A stretch of DNA of 64,000 bases from contig PLUF01000095.1 in NCBI GenBank assembly GCA_003164815.1, positions 1-64,000 on the forward strand, given 5' to 3'. The stretch is from Candidatus Gagatemarchaeum stordalenia. Lineage in GTDB: Archaea > Thermoproteota > Nitrososphaeria > Nitrososphaerales > Gagatemarchaeaceae. Of the stretch, positions 50,611 through 56,152 are shown in pieces (positions within the stretch are counted from its first letter, which is position 1; each line of letters starts with the position of its first letter). The notes under the pieces were generated by a model. That model was not told where the DNA came from. It made no database searches and worked only from the letters and a program-made list of their open reading frames with translations. Made by a program: the position numbers and the translations under genes.

Positions 50611-52119
50611 ATGGCGAAGCAGATCTCTGTCAGGCGGACAGGGTTCGTGGTCTTCGCCTTCAGAATCGTGAGCATCTTCACCGGCCTGATCTTCCTGCTC
50701 ATGATGACCCGGACCCTGAGCACGTCCCAGTTCGGGCTCTGGGAGGTGGTCGTGGACCTCGTGACCTTCGCGTCATACCCGGCGGGACTCCTGGTCTACT
50801 GGGCGACCCGCGACATCGCGAGGGGGAAGCTGCTGGGGAAGACGGCCCTCGGGATGAACCTCGCCCTCAGCGCCGGGGGGATGGTGCTCTACGTAGCGCT
50901 CTCGTTCCTCACTGGCAGCCGCGTGGGTCAGTCGGACCTCATGACCATCCTCCTGGCCATCCTCCTCGTCCCCATAGCCTACTGGAACACGGCCGCGAAC
51001 GCGATCGTCTCGGGATACGACCCCGTAGTCCAGGGCTACTCCACCATCACCTCGGAGATCTGCAAGCTGGCGTTCGCCTACCCGCTGCTCATCGTCTTCC
51101 ACGTCGGCATCGACGGGGTCATCGTCTCCCTGATGGCGGCGAACTTCGCCCAGGCCGCGGCCTCGACCATCCTGGCGAGGGGCGCGTTCCAGCTGCCCTT
51201 CGACCCCGTGGCTGGGAGGAGGTGGCTGAGGAGGTCCTGGCTGCCGTCGCTCTCGACGCTCCCCTACGCCCTCGGAGTCGCCGACACGTTCGTCGCGAGC
51301 CTGGTCGCCGGTGGGACGATGACCGTCGGTTTCTACCAGGCGGCCTTTGCCGTAGCGTCCCTTGCCGGGTACTCGTACTACCTGGGGGTCGCGCTCTACC
51401 CTCTGCTCCTGAGGGGCGGGGCGGGGTCGGAGGAGCTTCCTACGATCACGCTCGACCTCTCGCTGCTCTTCGGCATCCCGCTGGCCGTCGGGGCAGCCTT
51501 CCTCGCGAAGCCCATCCTCTTCGTCCTCAACCCCACCTACGTGCAGAGCACCACGGCCCTCGAGATATTGGCGTTCGCTTCGCTCGCGAACGCGACGAAC
51601 ATAATCCTGGACCAGATACTCGCCGGGAAGGAGACGATAGACGCAGACGAGACTGCGGGCGTGAGGCATTTCGTCCACAGCAACCTGTTCTTCGTCTTCC
51701 TGGTCGACTTCGGGAGCACCCTCATCTACGTCCTGTCGGTCCTGCTGATAGTGGTCGCAGGGACGGCAAGCGGCGCGTCTCCGGTCACGACCATAGACCT
51801 CTGGGCGGCCGCACAGCTCGTAGTCTTCTCGATATTTTTGGGGGTCCGAGTGGTACGGATAAGGAAGGGGGGCAAGCTCTCGCTACGCCCATCATTCCTC
51901 AGGTACGTCGCTGGCTCCGGCGTGATGGCCGTCTTCTTCGTGATCGCAGGCCGACTCCTGAACTACGGGCTCCATGCGACGGTCTTCGTGGAGGAGCTGG
52001 GCGCGGTAGCCCTGGCCGGAGTCGGAATCTACTTCGTGTTCCTCTTCGCGACGGAGAGCAGTTTCCGACAGGTCGTCAAGATGGTCTTGAAGCCGCTCAC
52101 GGGTTCAAGAGCGACTTGA
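50611..52119 (+). CDS. Polysaccharide flippase (Wzx/MATE-type)
   Basis: This 502-residue transporter has 12-14 hydrophobic helices and the polysaccharide-biosynthesis exporter pattern: TGFVVFAFRIVSIFTGLIFLLMMTR, ISTSQFGLWEVVVDLV-like entry, ANAIVSGYDPVVQGYSTI and many Gly-rich turns. It likely moves lipid-linked sugar units out of the cell. Its 3' end overlaps the convergent glycosyltransferase by 23 bp. Confidence 0.85.
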   Translation: MAKQISVRRTGFVVFAFRIVSIFTGLIFLLMMTRTLSTSQFGLWEVVVDLVTFASYPAGLLVYWATRDIARGKLLGKTALGMNLALSAGGMVLYVALSFLTGSRVGQSDLMTILLAILLVPIAYWNTAANAIVSGYDPVVQGYSTITSEICKLAFAYPLLIVFHVGIDGVIVSLMAANFAQAAASTILARGAFQLPFDPVAGRRWLRRSWLPSLSTLPYALGVADTFVASLVAGGTMTVGFYQAAFAVASLAGYSYYLGVALYPLLLRGGAGSEELPTITLDLSLLFGIPLAVGAAFLAKPILFVLNPTYVQSTTALEILAFASLANATNIILDQILAGKETIDADETAGVRHFVHSNLFFVFLVDFGSTLIYVLSVLLIVVAGTASGASPVTTIDLWAAAQLVVFSIFLGVRVVRIRKGGKLSLRPSFLRYVAGSGVMAVFFVIAGRLLNYGLHATVFVEELGAVALAGVGIYFVFLFATESSFRQVVKMVLKPLTGSRAT

Positions 52120-53105
52120 GAGCCTGAATCTCGCCCTGACGGGAGGCCGACAGCCCTTCGTACCATCGCGTTATCCTCACCCTATACTCGTCTCGGACGG
52201 CCGCCTCCTGCATCAGCCGGACCTTCTTCGCTATCTCCTCGGGGTCGGACGAGTCGGTGTAGAGGAGCGCGTCGCCGAAGAAGTCTTCGAGCACTTCCTG
52301 CCTGGAGGAGATAGTCGGCAGCGAGCTCGCGGCGTACTCCAGCAGGACGTGGGATAGCGTGTATGGCTCGTCGGTCACGTTGACCGCCATATCAGCAGAC
52401 GCCTTCAGTGACTCGTAGGTCTGTCTGGGCAGGAACCCCAGATACCTGACGTTCTCCGGTAGCTCCCGCTCCGAGAGCCTGCGCTCCAGCTTCTCCTTCG
52501 GACCGGTGATGAGCAGTTCGACCGTCGCGACCTGGCCCACCCCGGAGGCCTCTGCCTCGATGCGCTCGAGTGGGTGGCCGCCGTGCGAGCAGATTACGAT
52601 GGTGGCCCTGGACGTGAAGCTGCGCCTCAGCGGCTCGTCGCGGGGGTTGGGGTTCCGCCCGACAAAGTCGTGCACGACAAGCACGTTCGTCGCGCCCATC
52701 GCGCTCAGCTTCTCCCCCCAGAACCGGTGAGGGGCGGTGTTCCCGGCCGCTGCGCGTGCGACTACGCCCTCAAGGAAGCCGATCGCCTTGGAGACCGGAC
52801 CACTCCCGAGGGTCTTGATCCGCCATATGGAGTGGTGGTCGACGACGAGCCTCGTGCCCGTGAGGCTGCAGTAGAACATGCACGTAAGGGGGCAGAAGAC
52901 CGGCGGGTTCTGTGCGTAGACGACGTCGGGCCTCCGCTGGAAGAGGATTATCAGGGTCTTGAAGAAGAGAGCAACGTAGCGGATGGGCGCGAAGTATCTG
53001 GGCCCGTAAAGGAAGGTGATGCTGACCCTCTCGGCACCGACCGCCTCGGCGAGCTCATCGGCGCGAAATCCGAAAGGGACCCCAAACTAATACTAGGGTT
53101 TTCAC
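52097..53105 (-). pseudogene. Glycosyltransferase body, interrupted upstream by a homing endonuclease gene
   Basis: The product is a GT4-like protein. From about 53070 to 52097 one frame reads GFRADELAEAVGAERVSITF, GPRYFAPIRYVA, VVYAQNPPVFCPLTC, DHHSIWRIKTLG, VEGVVARAAAGNTAP and a GT-B C-terminal half (VRYLGFLPRQTYESLKASADM, YTLSHVLLEYAASSLPTIS). GTG 53105 directly follows the nuclease stop and gives MKTLVLVWGPF, a proper GT N-terminus, but one extra base in CCCTTTCGG (minus strand, ~53071-53075) shifts it out of frame with GFRADEL. The protein is therefore broken unless a +1 frameshift or a start from ATG 52879 occurs. Confidence 0.75.
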
Positions 53106-53116
53106 TCACTCACCCC
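53061..53116. repeat. Direct repeat A flanking the homing endonuclease
   Basis: The 56-base segment starts GCGCGAAATCCGAAAGGGAC and is about three-quarters identical (by eye) to repeat B at 53958-54013. It contains the end of the nuclease gene and the restarted glycosyltransferase N-terminus. Confidence 0.8.
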
Positions 53117-53927
53117 TCGCTTCACGGAGCATCTCTTCGAGTCTCTCTCCAGCTATATCGCGGTTAGACTTGAATTCATGTTCCCAGATGGCCAGCACCT
53201 TCCATCCACGTCTTCCGAGCTCTTCATAGATTTGTCGGTCCTTGATTTTCTTTCGAAGCCAGTCTGGCACGTTTGGACAGTGCTTCGGACAGGCGTGCCA
53301 GTAGCAACCGTTGCAGAATACCGCGATTTTTTCATCGGGAAGGAAGAGGTCGGGAATGCAAATTCCTTCGACCCTCTTGCAGACTGAGAACTTTACCCCT
53401 CTCGTCGCCAAAGACTCTCTCGCAAGAATCTCGATTCTTGTTGGCCTGGTCACTCTCGCTATTGTTTCCGCGTGTTCGGGATGTGTTCTCCACCATTCTT
53501 TGAAGAACCAGTGGTTACGCTCAGCTAGTTGTTTCTTCCTATCATCAGTCCACCATGATCTTTTCTTTTCCCCGATCCTTGCCAAGCTTGGCGTCGTCTC
53601 CTTTGTTAGACCCTTGTTCCAGGGAACTTGCCCCATGTGTCCCCTTGAAATGGCACTTCTAACCTCCCCCGGCAGTTTCCTTCCAATTAGGAGTTCTGAG
53701 AGCTTTCTCTTGGTTGCTTCGGAATGATGACGTCCTACCCAGATCCTATTCCCATCCTTGAATTCGGTGGAGGGATGTCGGCCCTTGTTGGGATGGTGTC
53801 CGTGTACGGTCAAGTAATCTTCATAATACCTTCGTTTTCCTTCTAGGAATCTCGCCAGGTGTTCCTCAGTAGTTCGTGGGAGGGGACGATTTCTGACTGG
53901 ACTTCTCCTGACCGACCGTCCTTTCAT
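53106..53927 (-). CDS. Homing endonuclease with NUMOD-like repeats and Vsr-type nuclease domain
   Basis: The 273-residue protein has N-terminal basic repeats like NUMOD3 (RHHSEATKRKLSELLIGRKLPGE, GHMGQVPWNKGLTKETT) that bind DNA. A Vsr-like nuclease follows (GICIPDLFLPDEKIAVFCNGCYWHACPKHCPNVP, IKDRQIYEELGRRGWKVLAIWEHE). The D...H catalytic residues of Vsr-type homing nucleases are present. ATG 53927 lies ~23 bases after CTTTTTATTCAAAC. Its GC content is near 50%, lower than its neighbours. The stop TGA is followed directly by the GTG that restarts the glycosyltransferase. It is probably active in spreading the insertion. Confidence 0.85.
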   Translation of the reverse strand: MKGRSVRRSPVRNRPLPRTTEEHLARFLEGKRRYYEDYLTVHGHHPNKGRHPSTEFKDGNRIWVGRHHSEATKRKLSELLIGRKLPGEVRSAISRGHMGQVPWNKGLTKETTPSLARIGEKKRSWWTDDRKKQLAERNHWFFKEWWRTHPEHAETIARVTRPTRIEILARESLATRGVKFSVCKRVEGICIPDLFLPDEKIAVFCNGCYWHACPKHCPNVPDWLRKKIKDRQIYEELGRRGWKVLAIWEHEFKSNRDIAGERLEEMLREARGE

Positions 53928-53932
53928 GAATT

Positions 53933-54040
53933 CTAAAGCCGTGTTTGAATAAAAAGGGCGCGAAAACCAAAGGGACCCCAGACTAATGTAAGGATCTTCC
54001 CTCGCTCGCCCCCGGTCTCACGCATTTGCGTCGAGTCCAT
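53933..54040 (-). pseudogene. Detached N-terminus of the interrupted glycosyltransferase
   Basis: ATG 54040 starts MDSTQMRETGGERGKILTLV, then WGPFGFRA, after which the frame runs into element DNA (LFIQTRL) and stops at TAG 53935-53933. TCAATAAAGG on the minus strand (~54058-54068) gives a TATA ~24 bases upstream, so this is the native start. The next base run leads to the nuclease ATG five bases later. Confidence 0.75.
53958..54013. repeat. Direct repeat B flanking the homing endonuclease
   Basis: The 56-base partner of repeat A starts GCGCGAAAACCAAAGGGACC. Both copies encode the KILTLVWGPFGFRA-type glycosyltransferase strand on the minus strand. Confidence 0.8.
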
Positions 54041-54229
54041 CTTCCCGCCGTGAGCGCCTTTATTGATTACGAAGCTCTGAAGCGCGTTGCCAGCGCTGGT
54101 TCAGGTTAGCGGGTCCGTGAAAACCTCCCCCCACGGCCTCAATGGAGCGTGAGTCGACACCTCCCAACCCTTTTTAGGCCGCCGATGGCACTCCTCGGAA
54201 GGTTGCAGACTAGGACCGAGGGCCTTTCG

Positions 54230-56152
54230 ATGGATTATGCGAAGGCCGAACGGGAGATCGTGCGCTTCATTCGGAAGGTCGTCGAGGACTCTCGCTCTTC
54301 CGGGGCGGTCATAGGGCTGAGCGGGGGGATCGACAGCTCGGTCGTTGGAGCGCTTCTCGTGCGCGCGCTGGGGAAGGAGAAGGTGATCGGCATCCTCATG
54401 CCGGCGTCTCACACGCCGAAGCAGGACACAGAAGACGCCCGCGCGCTCGCCAAGAGCTGGGGGATCAAGACCTATGAAGTGGGCATCGACCCGGTCTTCT
54501 CGGCCTTTGAGAAGTCCCTCCCGAAGGAGGGCGCGGACAGGGTCGCCTACGCGAACGTCAAGGCCAGGATAAGGATGGTCATCAACTACTACATCGCCAA
54601 CTCCAACGGGATGCTGGTGGCAGGGACCGGGGACAGGTCAGAGGACATGATTGGGTTCTTCTGCTACGACGAGAAGACTCGGGTTGTAACCTCAGACGGG
54701 CCCAAGGACTTGAATGAGCTTAAAACTGGTGATTGTGTATTCTCGATAGATCCCAAGACGCAGTACATCGTTGAGTCGAACATCGAGGAAGTCTTCAGGT
54801 TCCCATATGAAGGGGAGATGATTCATTTTGCTGGACGAGGTGCTGATGTCATGGTTACTCCAAACCATCGCATGTTGATCCACACCAGTTCCTCAACTCC
54901 GAACTCTAGACTTACTTTCAAAAGAGCTGACGAATGTCTCGACAAGAGGGACGTCCTCACCCCGGTTCCACTAAGATGGGCGGGGAGTATCACGCCTCCC
55001 TCAAGCATACAACTGTCTTTCGAACAGAGACGCATCAGGAGAACAGTGAAACTCTCACTGGACGATGCGTTCTACATACTTGGGCTATTCATAGGAGACG
55101 GGAACGCCACAGTCGGGAAAGTGGTCGTACCGGTCAAATCTCGTCTGAGTCGAGTTGAGTACACGAGAACATGCCGTGACAAGGGCGGCAACTTCACGCC
55201 TATTGAGCCCGGGATGACAGAAGTTCGTATGAAGGAGTACAATACGTTTGAGACTACATTCTCTTTGCCAAACTATACCAAAGATGCTGCGAGACAACGT
55301 CTTATCGAGATTCTTGGAAAATATCAGATCGGATACCATCTCACGAAGGACACCGTCCGCATTTCCTCAGAGGGAATATACGATTTCTTCTCTCAGTGCG
55401 GAATCGGTGCACGAAACAAACACATTCCAAATTGGATTCTAGCTTATCCATCAGAGTATCTAGTACACCTACTTCGTGGCTTGAAAGACAGCGATGGTAG
55501 ACATTCTGAATCAATGAGCGTTTACTACACCTCTTCCGCGAGGCTCAGAGACGATTTCACGCAGCTATGCTTCAAGCTAGGAAGGAGAGCCAGTGTCACT
55601 TACAACGACCCTAAACGGCCACAGATTAATGGCAAGGTCATAAGGACTGGGTCTTCGTTCACTATCAGCTACGCCCACAAGCAGCGCTCTCAGCATGCGA
55701 TGAAGAGCAGACTGGCGAAGAAAGTCTCCTACAAGGGCGTAGTCTGGTGTCCGTCAGTGCCGCCTTTTGAGAACGTGTTGGTCGAGCGGAACGGGAAGTA
55801 TGTCTTTTCAGGCAATACCAAGTACGGGGACGGCGGCGTGGACTTCCTGCCGATTGCCCACCTCTACAAGACACAGGTCAGGCTCCTCGGCGCGCACCTC
55901 GGGCTCCCCGAACCGGTGGTGAACAAGCCGGCCTCGCCGCAGCTGTGGCCGGGACACAAGGCGGTGGATGAGATTCCGATCGAATACGAGCGCCTGGACC
56001 TGGTGCTGGCAGGGCTCTTCGATGAGAAGCGGACGCCCGCTGAGGTGGCGAAGACGACCGGGGTCGGCATCAAGGTCGTCCGGGACGTGATCAGGCGGCA
56101 CAGGGCCTCGGCGCACAAGCGTGCCTATCCCCCCATGCTCGGCAGTTGGTAG
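54230..56152 (+). CDS. nadE: NH3-dependent NAD synthetase with intein
   Basis: Precursor of 640 residues; mature NadE after splicing 255. The N-part has the PP-loop SGGIDSSVVGALL and AGTGDRSEDMIGFF, the C-part resumes TKYGDGGVDFLPIAHLYKTQV, matching the normal NadE run. There is no glutaminase domain, so ammonia is the nitrogen source. It converts deamido-NAD to NAD. I prefer ATG 54230; TTG 54203 is ~30 bases from the box CCTTTTTAGG and would add nine residues. The intein is listed separately. Confidence 0.93.
   Translation: MDYAKAEREIVRFIRKVVEDSRSSGAVIGLSGGIDSSVVGALLVRALGKEKVIGILMPASHTPKQDTEDARALAKSWGIKTYEVGIDPVFSAFEKSLPKEGADRVAYANVKARIRMVINYYIANSNGMLVAGTGDRSEDMIGFFCYDEKTRVVTSDGPKDLNELKTGDCVFSIDPKTQYIVESNIEEVFRFPYEGEMIHFAGRGADVMVTPNHRMLIHTSSSTPNSRLTFKRADECLDKRDVLTPVPLRWAGSITPPSSIQLSFEQRRIRRTVKLSLDDAFYILGLFIGDGNATVGKVVVPVKSRLSRVEYTRTCRDKGGNFTPIEPGMTEVRMKEYNTFETTFSLPNYTKDAARQRLIEILGKYQIGYHLTKDTVRISSEGIYDFFSQCGIGARNKHIPNWILAYPSEYLVHLLRGLKDSDGRHSESMSVYYTSSARLRDDFTQLCFKLGRRASVTYNDPKRPQINGKVIRTGSSFTISYAHKQRSQHAMKSRLAKKVSYKGVVWCPSVPPFENVLVERNGKYVFSGNTKYGDGGVDFLPIAHLYKTQVRLLGAHLGLPEPVVNKPASPQLWPGHKAVDEIPIEYERLDLVLAGLFDEKRTPAEVAKTTGVGIKVVRDVIRRHRASAHKRAYPPMLGSW
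54662..55816 (+). other. 385-residue LAGLIDADG intein inside nadE
   Basis: Splice block A is CYDEKTRVVTSDGPKDLNEL with the N-terminal Cys; block B is GADVMVTPNHRMLI (TxxH). The endonuclease has two LAGLIDADG-type helices, DAFYILGLFIGDGNA and YLVHLLRGLKDSDGRH, each ending in an acidic residue, so it looks complete. Block F/G is VLVERNGKYVFSGN with the terminal Asn; Gly replaces the usual penultimate His. The C-extein begins with Thr (TKYGDGG), the +1 nucleophile. GC is visibly lower than in the nadE exteins, consistent with a mobile intein. Confidence 0.92.

Follow-up and report, generated by a model that had tools for sequence, protein, structure and literature searches.

The window (the whole stretch of 64,000 nucleotides (nts) that was analyzed) is contig C78 of a 2.84 Mb archaeal metagenome assembly, hereafter G000, and the named neighbor genomes, e.g. 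AcS1-27, AcS4-109 and palsa_1368, belong to Thaumarchaeota/Nitrososphaerales. On the minus strand, a first copy of the 5′ end of a glycosyltransferase (GT) gene (copy A) is followed by a nuclease gene, a second copy of the 5′ end (copy B, starting with the GTG at 53105) and the GT body, in this order (Table 1). Together with the restart, GT occupies 52097-53105, and a conserved convergent flippase gene faces it. Wherever GT is present in the genus, it gives a single match per genome at E<=0.001, and no second copy was found at this threshold in G000 or in the related genome G001.

A first, sequence-only reading had described the nuclease ORF as interrupting GT, with a GTG restart directly past its TGA, and these coordinates were verified. 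That reading had also taken copy A as the ATG at 54040 and the first strand of GT, which holds with the correction that copy A has an extended N terminus of its own and forms an ORF of 35 codons. Its peptide contains WGPFGFRA, continues with LFIQTRL and stops 5 nts ahead of the nuclease ATG. The position of the GTG of copy B is GGG in copy A, and therefore the start of copy A lies upstream, at the ATG at 54040 or the next in-frame ATG. Because the GTG of copy B abuts the nuclease TGA and the nuclease ATG lies just past the stop of copy A, the arrangement suggests that nuclease and GT are adjoining cistrons with coupled translation.

The two copies form direct repeats at 53073-53126 and 53969-54022 (54 nts, 76% identical, spacing 896), in agreement with the earlier description of imperfect repeats, about 75% identical, flanking the element, and the spacing shifts from 896 to 897 across an extra base. 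When the similarity was checked against chance, the gapped alignment of A and B (67 columns) scored 71, compared with a maximum of 33 among 200 shuffles. The adjoining NAD synthetase gene (54149-56152, plus strand) carries an intein with Hint and LAGLIDADG signatures and a GC content of about 48%; a similar long form is found in G006 and an intein-free form in G002.

Table 1. Features of the interrupted GT locus, in positions of the window
Feature	Position	Strand	Description or basis
Copy A, stranded native GT 5′ end	53933-54040	-	35-codon ORF MDSTQMRETGGERGKILTLVWGPFGFRALFIQTRL and stop; counterpart in G007, L018:833-925
Repeat copy A, matching B	53957-54022	-	Repeat alignment
Nuclease, NUMOD3 + Vsr-type (EDxHD-like), 273 aa, ATG to TGA	53106-53927	-	ORF, domain searches
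NUMOD3 motif, nuclease residues 65-82	53682-53735	-	Pfam
Vsr catalytic domain, nuclease residues 160-212	53292-53450	-	Pfam, PDB sequence match, fold match
Repeat copy B: Shine-Dalgarno-like GGGGTGA, GTG start, first strand KTLVLVWGPF	53060-53126	-	Repeat alignment
Zero-frame ORF of B, MKTLVLVWGPFRISRR and stop, TGA end overlapping GT body	53055-53105	-	Translation
Putative +1 shift site CCC TTT C; +1 frame then GGA TTT CGC GCC	53072-53078	-	Same motif in G001
GT body start, 16 nts GATGAGCTCGCCGAGG, identical to G001; may be right edge of imported DNA	53044-53059	-	
GT body (GT-B, Glycos_transf_1), 320 aa, open	52097-53059	-	Pfam, translation

The nuclease and its relatives

Pfam searches of the nuclease gave matches above cutoff to NUMOD3 (two stretches) and to Vsr (5.1e-08), and the best solved relative by sequence was Vsr of E. 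coli (PDB 1cw0, 1.3e-08). The structure model was modest (mean pLDDT 58.8, about 80 in the Vsr domain and of low confidence outside it), and its catalytic domain matched the folds of Vsr (1cw0) and of the homing endonuclease I-Bth0305I (3r3p). In the alignment of six homologues, E166, D193 and H211 were invariant and a later Asp was found in three; these are candidates for the E-D-x-H-D catalytic residues. The protein thus has both the Vsr-like catalytic domain and the NUMOD-type DNA-binding region that mark EDxHD/Vsr-type homing endonucleases. The GC content of the nuclease gene was 50.5% versus 63.9% for the GT body.

A search of the window genome against itself found only one copy of the element and its nuclease. 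Among about 800 genomes of the order and phylum and a viral collection, full-length close relatives of the nuclease were present only in G000 and G007. When the flanks of 41 nuclease loci were scanned for similarity, no other case of re-supply emerged; the threshold was insensitive, missing the window and G007 themselves at the protein level.

Two further groups of loci were observed in these searches. Very long ORFs with inserts matching the Vsr-type nuclease profile were found at L025 (G024), where an RFC small subunit contains an intein splicing domain, at L036 (G012), which has an RFC-like start, and at L061 (G103), an 812-aa frame; these are possibly inteins armed with a Vsr-type nuclease. 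At L028 and L030, from two different families of the order, a gene for a Vsr-like nuclease lies directly downstream of a QueC-like gene.

The same site in related genomes

According to the identity of GT and flippase, the genomes of the genus fall into two clades, one with G000, G002 and G006 and the other with G001, G007 and G004; each species compared is represented by one metagenome assembly, a small sample. Uninterrupted in-frame GT alleles were found in G002 and G004. In G007 (PLCG01000020, palsa_1368), the second species of the genus, a homologous nuclease with 59% identity is located at the same GT codon. Its copy A (MSDNPKILLLLWAPFGFRC...) is stranded ahead of the nuclease, with a stop overlapping the likely TTG start of the nuclease, and its copy B (MRILLILWGPFGDRADELAE) is an intact in-frame ATG restart directly past the nuclease TAG. 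Relatives, to which the sequence-only reading had pointed for comparison, thus provide both uninterrupted alleles and an intact restart. Because G007 has the same nuclease site, a stranded copy and an intact restart, the proposal of that reading that the element re-supplies the 5′ end of the gene it enters is supported, and so is the conservation of the arrangement in a second species.

A third species, G001, has a B-type 5′ end without copy A and without the nuclease, and no nuclease was found elsewhere in its genome at the search threshold. Upstream of GT in G006, the translation reads FKINKG, a stop and PARKLDSMRRQGAG, to be compared with FKSNRDIAGERLEEMLREARG, and this resembles the last about 20 codons of the nuclease, in register. 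In a remnant test restricted to this register, G006 gave p 0.002 (16 tests), and G001 was not significant (p 0.13-0.23); a gapped local search of the sequences ahead of uninterrupted GT genes gave no convincing nuclease remnants. The G006 sequence suggests that the nuclease can be lost, leaving the supplied copy B as the new start of the gene. Two other observations were made at these loci: the GT contig of G005 (C137, L006) begins 22 codons into the body, near the insertion site, as if the assembly broke at a variable element, and in G006 a UDP-glucose dehydrogenase-like ORF of 832 aa (L038:2326-4824), probably with an intein, adjoins GT.

The source of copy B in the window was examined by the same comparison. 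Across the start and the extra base, copy B is identical to G001 at 51 of 60 positions, and the leader GGGGTGAGTGAGTGAAAAC is also common to both. Beyond the first 16 nts of the GT body of the window, nearly all informative sites go with G002 and G006, so that the sequence is G001-like through 16 nts of the body and then follows its own clade. Copy B is, however, equally near to copy A of the window (37/45, versus 36/45 to G001). Copying of a short tract from the other clade may account for the pattern of copy B and the next 16 nts, and the origin of copy B may be mixed, by import, by conversion between A and B or local duplication, or by transfer of both A and B.

An extra base in the restarted gene

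The sequence-only reading had noticed one extra base in CCCTTTCGG that breaks the restart and had left three options, mis-sequencing, decay or a programmed frameshift. The base was located exactly, as the C at 53072 in CCC TTT C GGA, and the same base is found at the same place in G001, in an otherwise normal GT without a nuclease. Since G001 is an independent genome, sequencing error was ruled out.

A readable 5′ end was available for 16 homologues; 14 of them have an in-frame ATG, GTG or TTG start upstream of the body, and the two lacking it are G000 and G001. (G006 probably starts at CTG, and has a GTG nine codons ahead of the GT body.) The first in-frame start inside the body is at codon 60 in G000 and 45 in G001. 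In the stretch of body ahead of these starts, 40/45 residues are the same between G000 and G002, with 17/21 changes at third positions, and 36/40 residues are the same between G001 and G007, with 16/21 changes at third positions. Nonsynonymous and synonymous changes polarized by an outgroup numbered 20/40 for G000 versus 20/42 for G002, and 13/47 for G001 versus 26/60 for G007. These substitution patterns indicate that the GT bodies of both G000 and G001 are under ordinary purifying selection without relaxation, which disfavors simple decay.

Selection can also be followed across the break. Copy B of G000 and the G001 sequence differ at 9 of 60 sites, and when these were phased by hand from the GTG, eight were silent, given a +1 shift at TTT_C. 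Ahead of TTT, five differences are at third positions and two at first positions, one of the latter silent; the two past TTT are at third positions in the +1 frame and would change amino acids in the unshifted frame. In four neighboring genes, Phe is encoded by TTT in only 6 of 58 cases, yet TTT is kept in both alleles, and CGG is not a rare Arg codon (21/111). No significant RNA structure was detected past the shift site, and the GGGG run just upstream of it is part of Trp-Gly codons. Reading TTTC as one word passes through the break in G001 but fails in G000, where a second TTTC is in frame. Two species thus share a break in the reading frame at a slippery site, and selection acts on the sequence to either side of it. 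Because of the shared base, the selection on the GT bodies and the eight of nine differences that are silent upon the shift, a decoded +1 frameshift at CCC_TTT_C in both lineages is favored as the best and simplest reading, and a programmed or tolerated frameshift is now the preferred candidate among the three options. The slip would be from UUU to UUC or from CCC to CCU, with an identical product.

Homing systems create resistant alleles by repair scars at their cut sites, and the extra base could be a recent scar of this kind, arisen once or twice, in which case the re-supply element would be real and GT of the window dead. In its favor, the base lies near the insertion junction, a place at which indels would be expected from a nuclease cut, and strong stimulators of frameshifting were not seen; a GT body of normal appearance would also be expected if two null alleles had arisen recently and independently. 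Nevertheless, we regard this as unlikely, because two lineages whose 5′ sequences differ at nine sites, nearly all silently, have the same base at the same place, because constraint on the body is normal in both, and because no second GT was found in either genome at E<=0.001.

A candidate homing element and its known counterparts

Readings that dispense with re-supply fare worse. It is very improbable that a free-standing nuclease lies by chance beside a truncated GT paralogue; the A and B DNA of G007 are far apart (24/45 identical), as in paralogues, but the two species share the nuclease, the insertion codon, the order and the abutting junctions, the A/B similarity in the window is far above that of shuffles, and no other GT paralogue at E<=0.001 is present in these genomes. 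Least credible is an intron (group I or archaeal bulge-helix-bulge) with copy A as exon 1 spliced to the body and copy B as a duplicated intron end, for although the A-B unit is 897 nts on the body side, so that A joined to the body gives an open frame, 52900-54300 has no Rfam match at E<=5, copy B of G007 is a complete in-frame start for which splicing is unneeded, and G001 has the B-type end without A or nuclease. Group II and other structured introns were rejected likewise, since the Rfam search gave no match to a conserved intron RNA at E<=5, and an intein was rejected since separate start and stop codons are found on either side and the nuclease has no Hint domain.

We return to a homing-type element with a substitute GT 5′ end, in which GT survives and the extra base is tolerated through a +1 shift, and consider this probable for the window. 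The known cases are two nuclease-bearing loci and two frameshifted alleles, all from metagenome assemblies. An EDxHD/Vsr-type nuclease gene would have been inserted past the conserved WGPFGFR(A) codons of GT, bringing along a Shine-Dalgarno site, a start codon and an N-terminal strand as substitutes, and the old 5′ end would stay as a short leader ORF. With the nuclease and then the restarted GT as adjoining cistrons, an order seen in the anatomy, GT would be expressed and survive the insertion, and the native upstream promoter is probably still in use. The nuclease presumably cuts uninterrupted alleles at the conserved site, and repair would copy in the element together with the substitute 5′ end. 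Because the nuclease target would be restored if copy B were joined to the native right half, the substitute would have to differ from that target, or else the element would cut itself. The target region does differ, by GFRA to GDRA in copy B of G007 and by the extra C in copy B of the window, and both changes may make the element resistant to the nuclease that it encodes. For the window allele and for G001, conservation and selection suggest that ribosomes shift +1 at CCC_TTT_C, giving WGPF-GFRADELAE.

A wider proposal is possible but held more tentatively, namely that a conserved +1 frameshift at CCC_UUU_C in an archaeal cellular gene, needed for full-length GT, was spread or fixed with a homing element whose rescue copy escapes its own nuclease via the inserted base. 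If so, the +1 frameshift would have arisen as a side effect of immunity to the nuclease. Repair of an interrupted gene by the element itself, known from fungal mitochondria and from integrase islands, would be extended by the locus to an archaeal homing-type nuclease. The locus would also show how a homing-type element could occupy a conserved coding site with neither intron nor intein, and it is a candidate case of +1 frameshifting in an archaeal cellular gene.

The nearest counterparts are the mORF elements of fungal mitochondria, which duplicate gene 3′ ends in atp6 of Allomyces and in atp6, atp9, cox2 and nad3 of Glomus (PMC3630166). As here, an endonuclease gene and a substitute for part of the host gene lie together in a conserved gene whose native end is left stranded, and the substitute is similar in protein and divergent in DNA; a foreign origin is suspected for the fungal substitutes and possible for copy B. 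In contrast, the fungal elements carry the 3′ end (C terminus) and LAGLIDADG or GIY-YIG nucleases and reside in organelles, whereas the archaeal element carries a 5′ end with its own ribosome site and a Vsr-type nuclease on a chromosomal contig; it shares the endonuclease ORF within a gene with a duplicated end, and not the mitochondrial, C-terminal setting. The integrative elements IMEVchUSA3 and ICE SXT supply a new 5′ end to dusA or prfC (PMC8409611), and there also the 5′ end of a gene is interrupted and a new, diverged N-terminal coding sequence restores the frame. These elements have a site-specific integrase and their own promoter, whereas the present unit is 897 nts with one nuclease gene and no integrase.

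EDxHD (Vsr-like) homing endonucleases such as I-Bth0305I (PDB 3r3p), whose target is reported to be nearly 60 bp (PMC3943268), join a Vsr-type catalytic fold to NUMOD DNA-binding motifs, as the present nuclease does. The examples in that report are mainly from phage and introns, whereas the archaeal nuclease gene interrupts a gene of the chromosome, with neither intron nor intein involved, and brings a replacement start for it. Engineered home-and-rescue gene drives, in which a nuclease directed at a conserved gene is combined with a recoded, resistant rescue piece (PMC7968924), share the logic; theirs is synthetic Cas9, whereas this is a natural archaeal locus with the first about 15 codons as the rescue.

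The putative shift site, CCC UUU CGG, is of the same kind as that of influenza PA-X, where a +1 frameshift occurs at UUU_CGN (UCC UUU CGU) (PMC4317690). PA-X is a low-level side product, whereas here no full-length protein would be made without the putative shift; slippage at CCC_U is an equal alternative to the UUU slip with the same product. For Archaea, a 2021 review gives one reported programmed frameshift, a -1 shift in Saccharolobus (PMC8211752), and for a virus of haloarchaea a +1 frameshift has been suggested (PMC5009743). In a limited literature search, no case of re-supply by a homing nuclease in an archaeal chromosome was found. Re-supplied gene ends are already known from fungal mitochondrial elements (3′) and integrase islands (5′); what is new, as read from these sequences, is a homing-nuclease version of gene-end re-supply in an archaeal chromosome, tied to a conserved putative frameshift.
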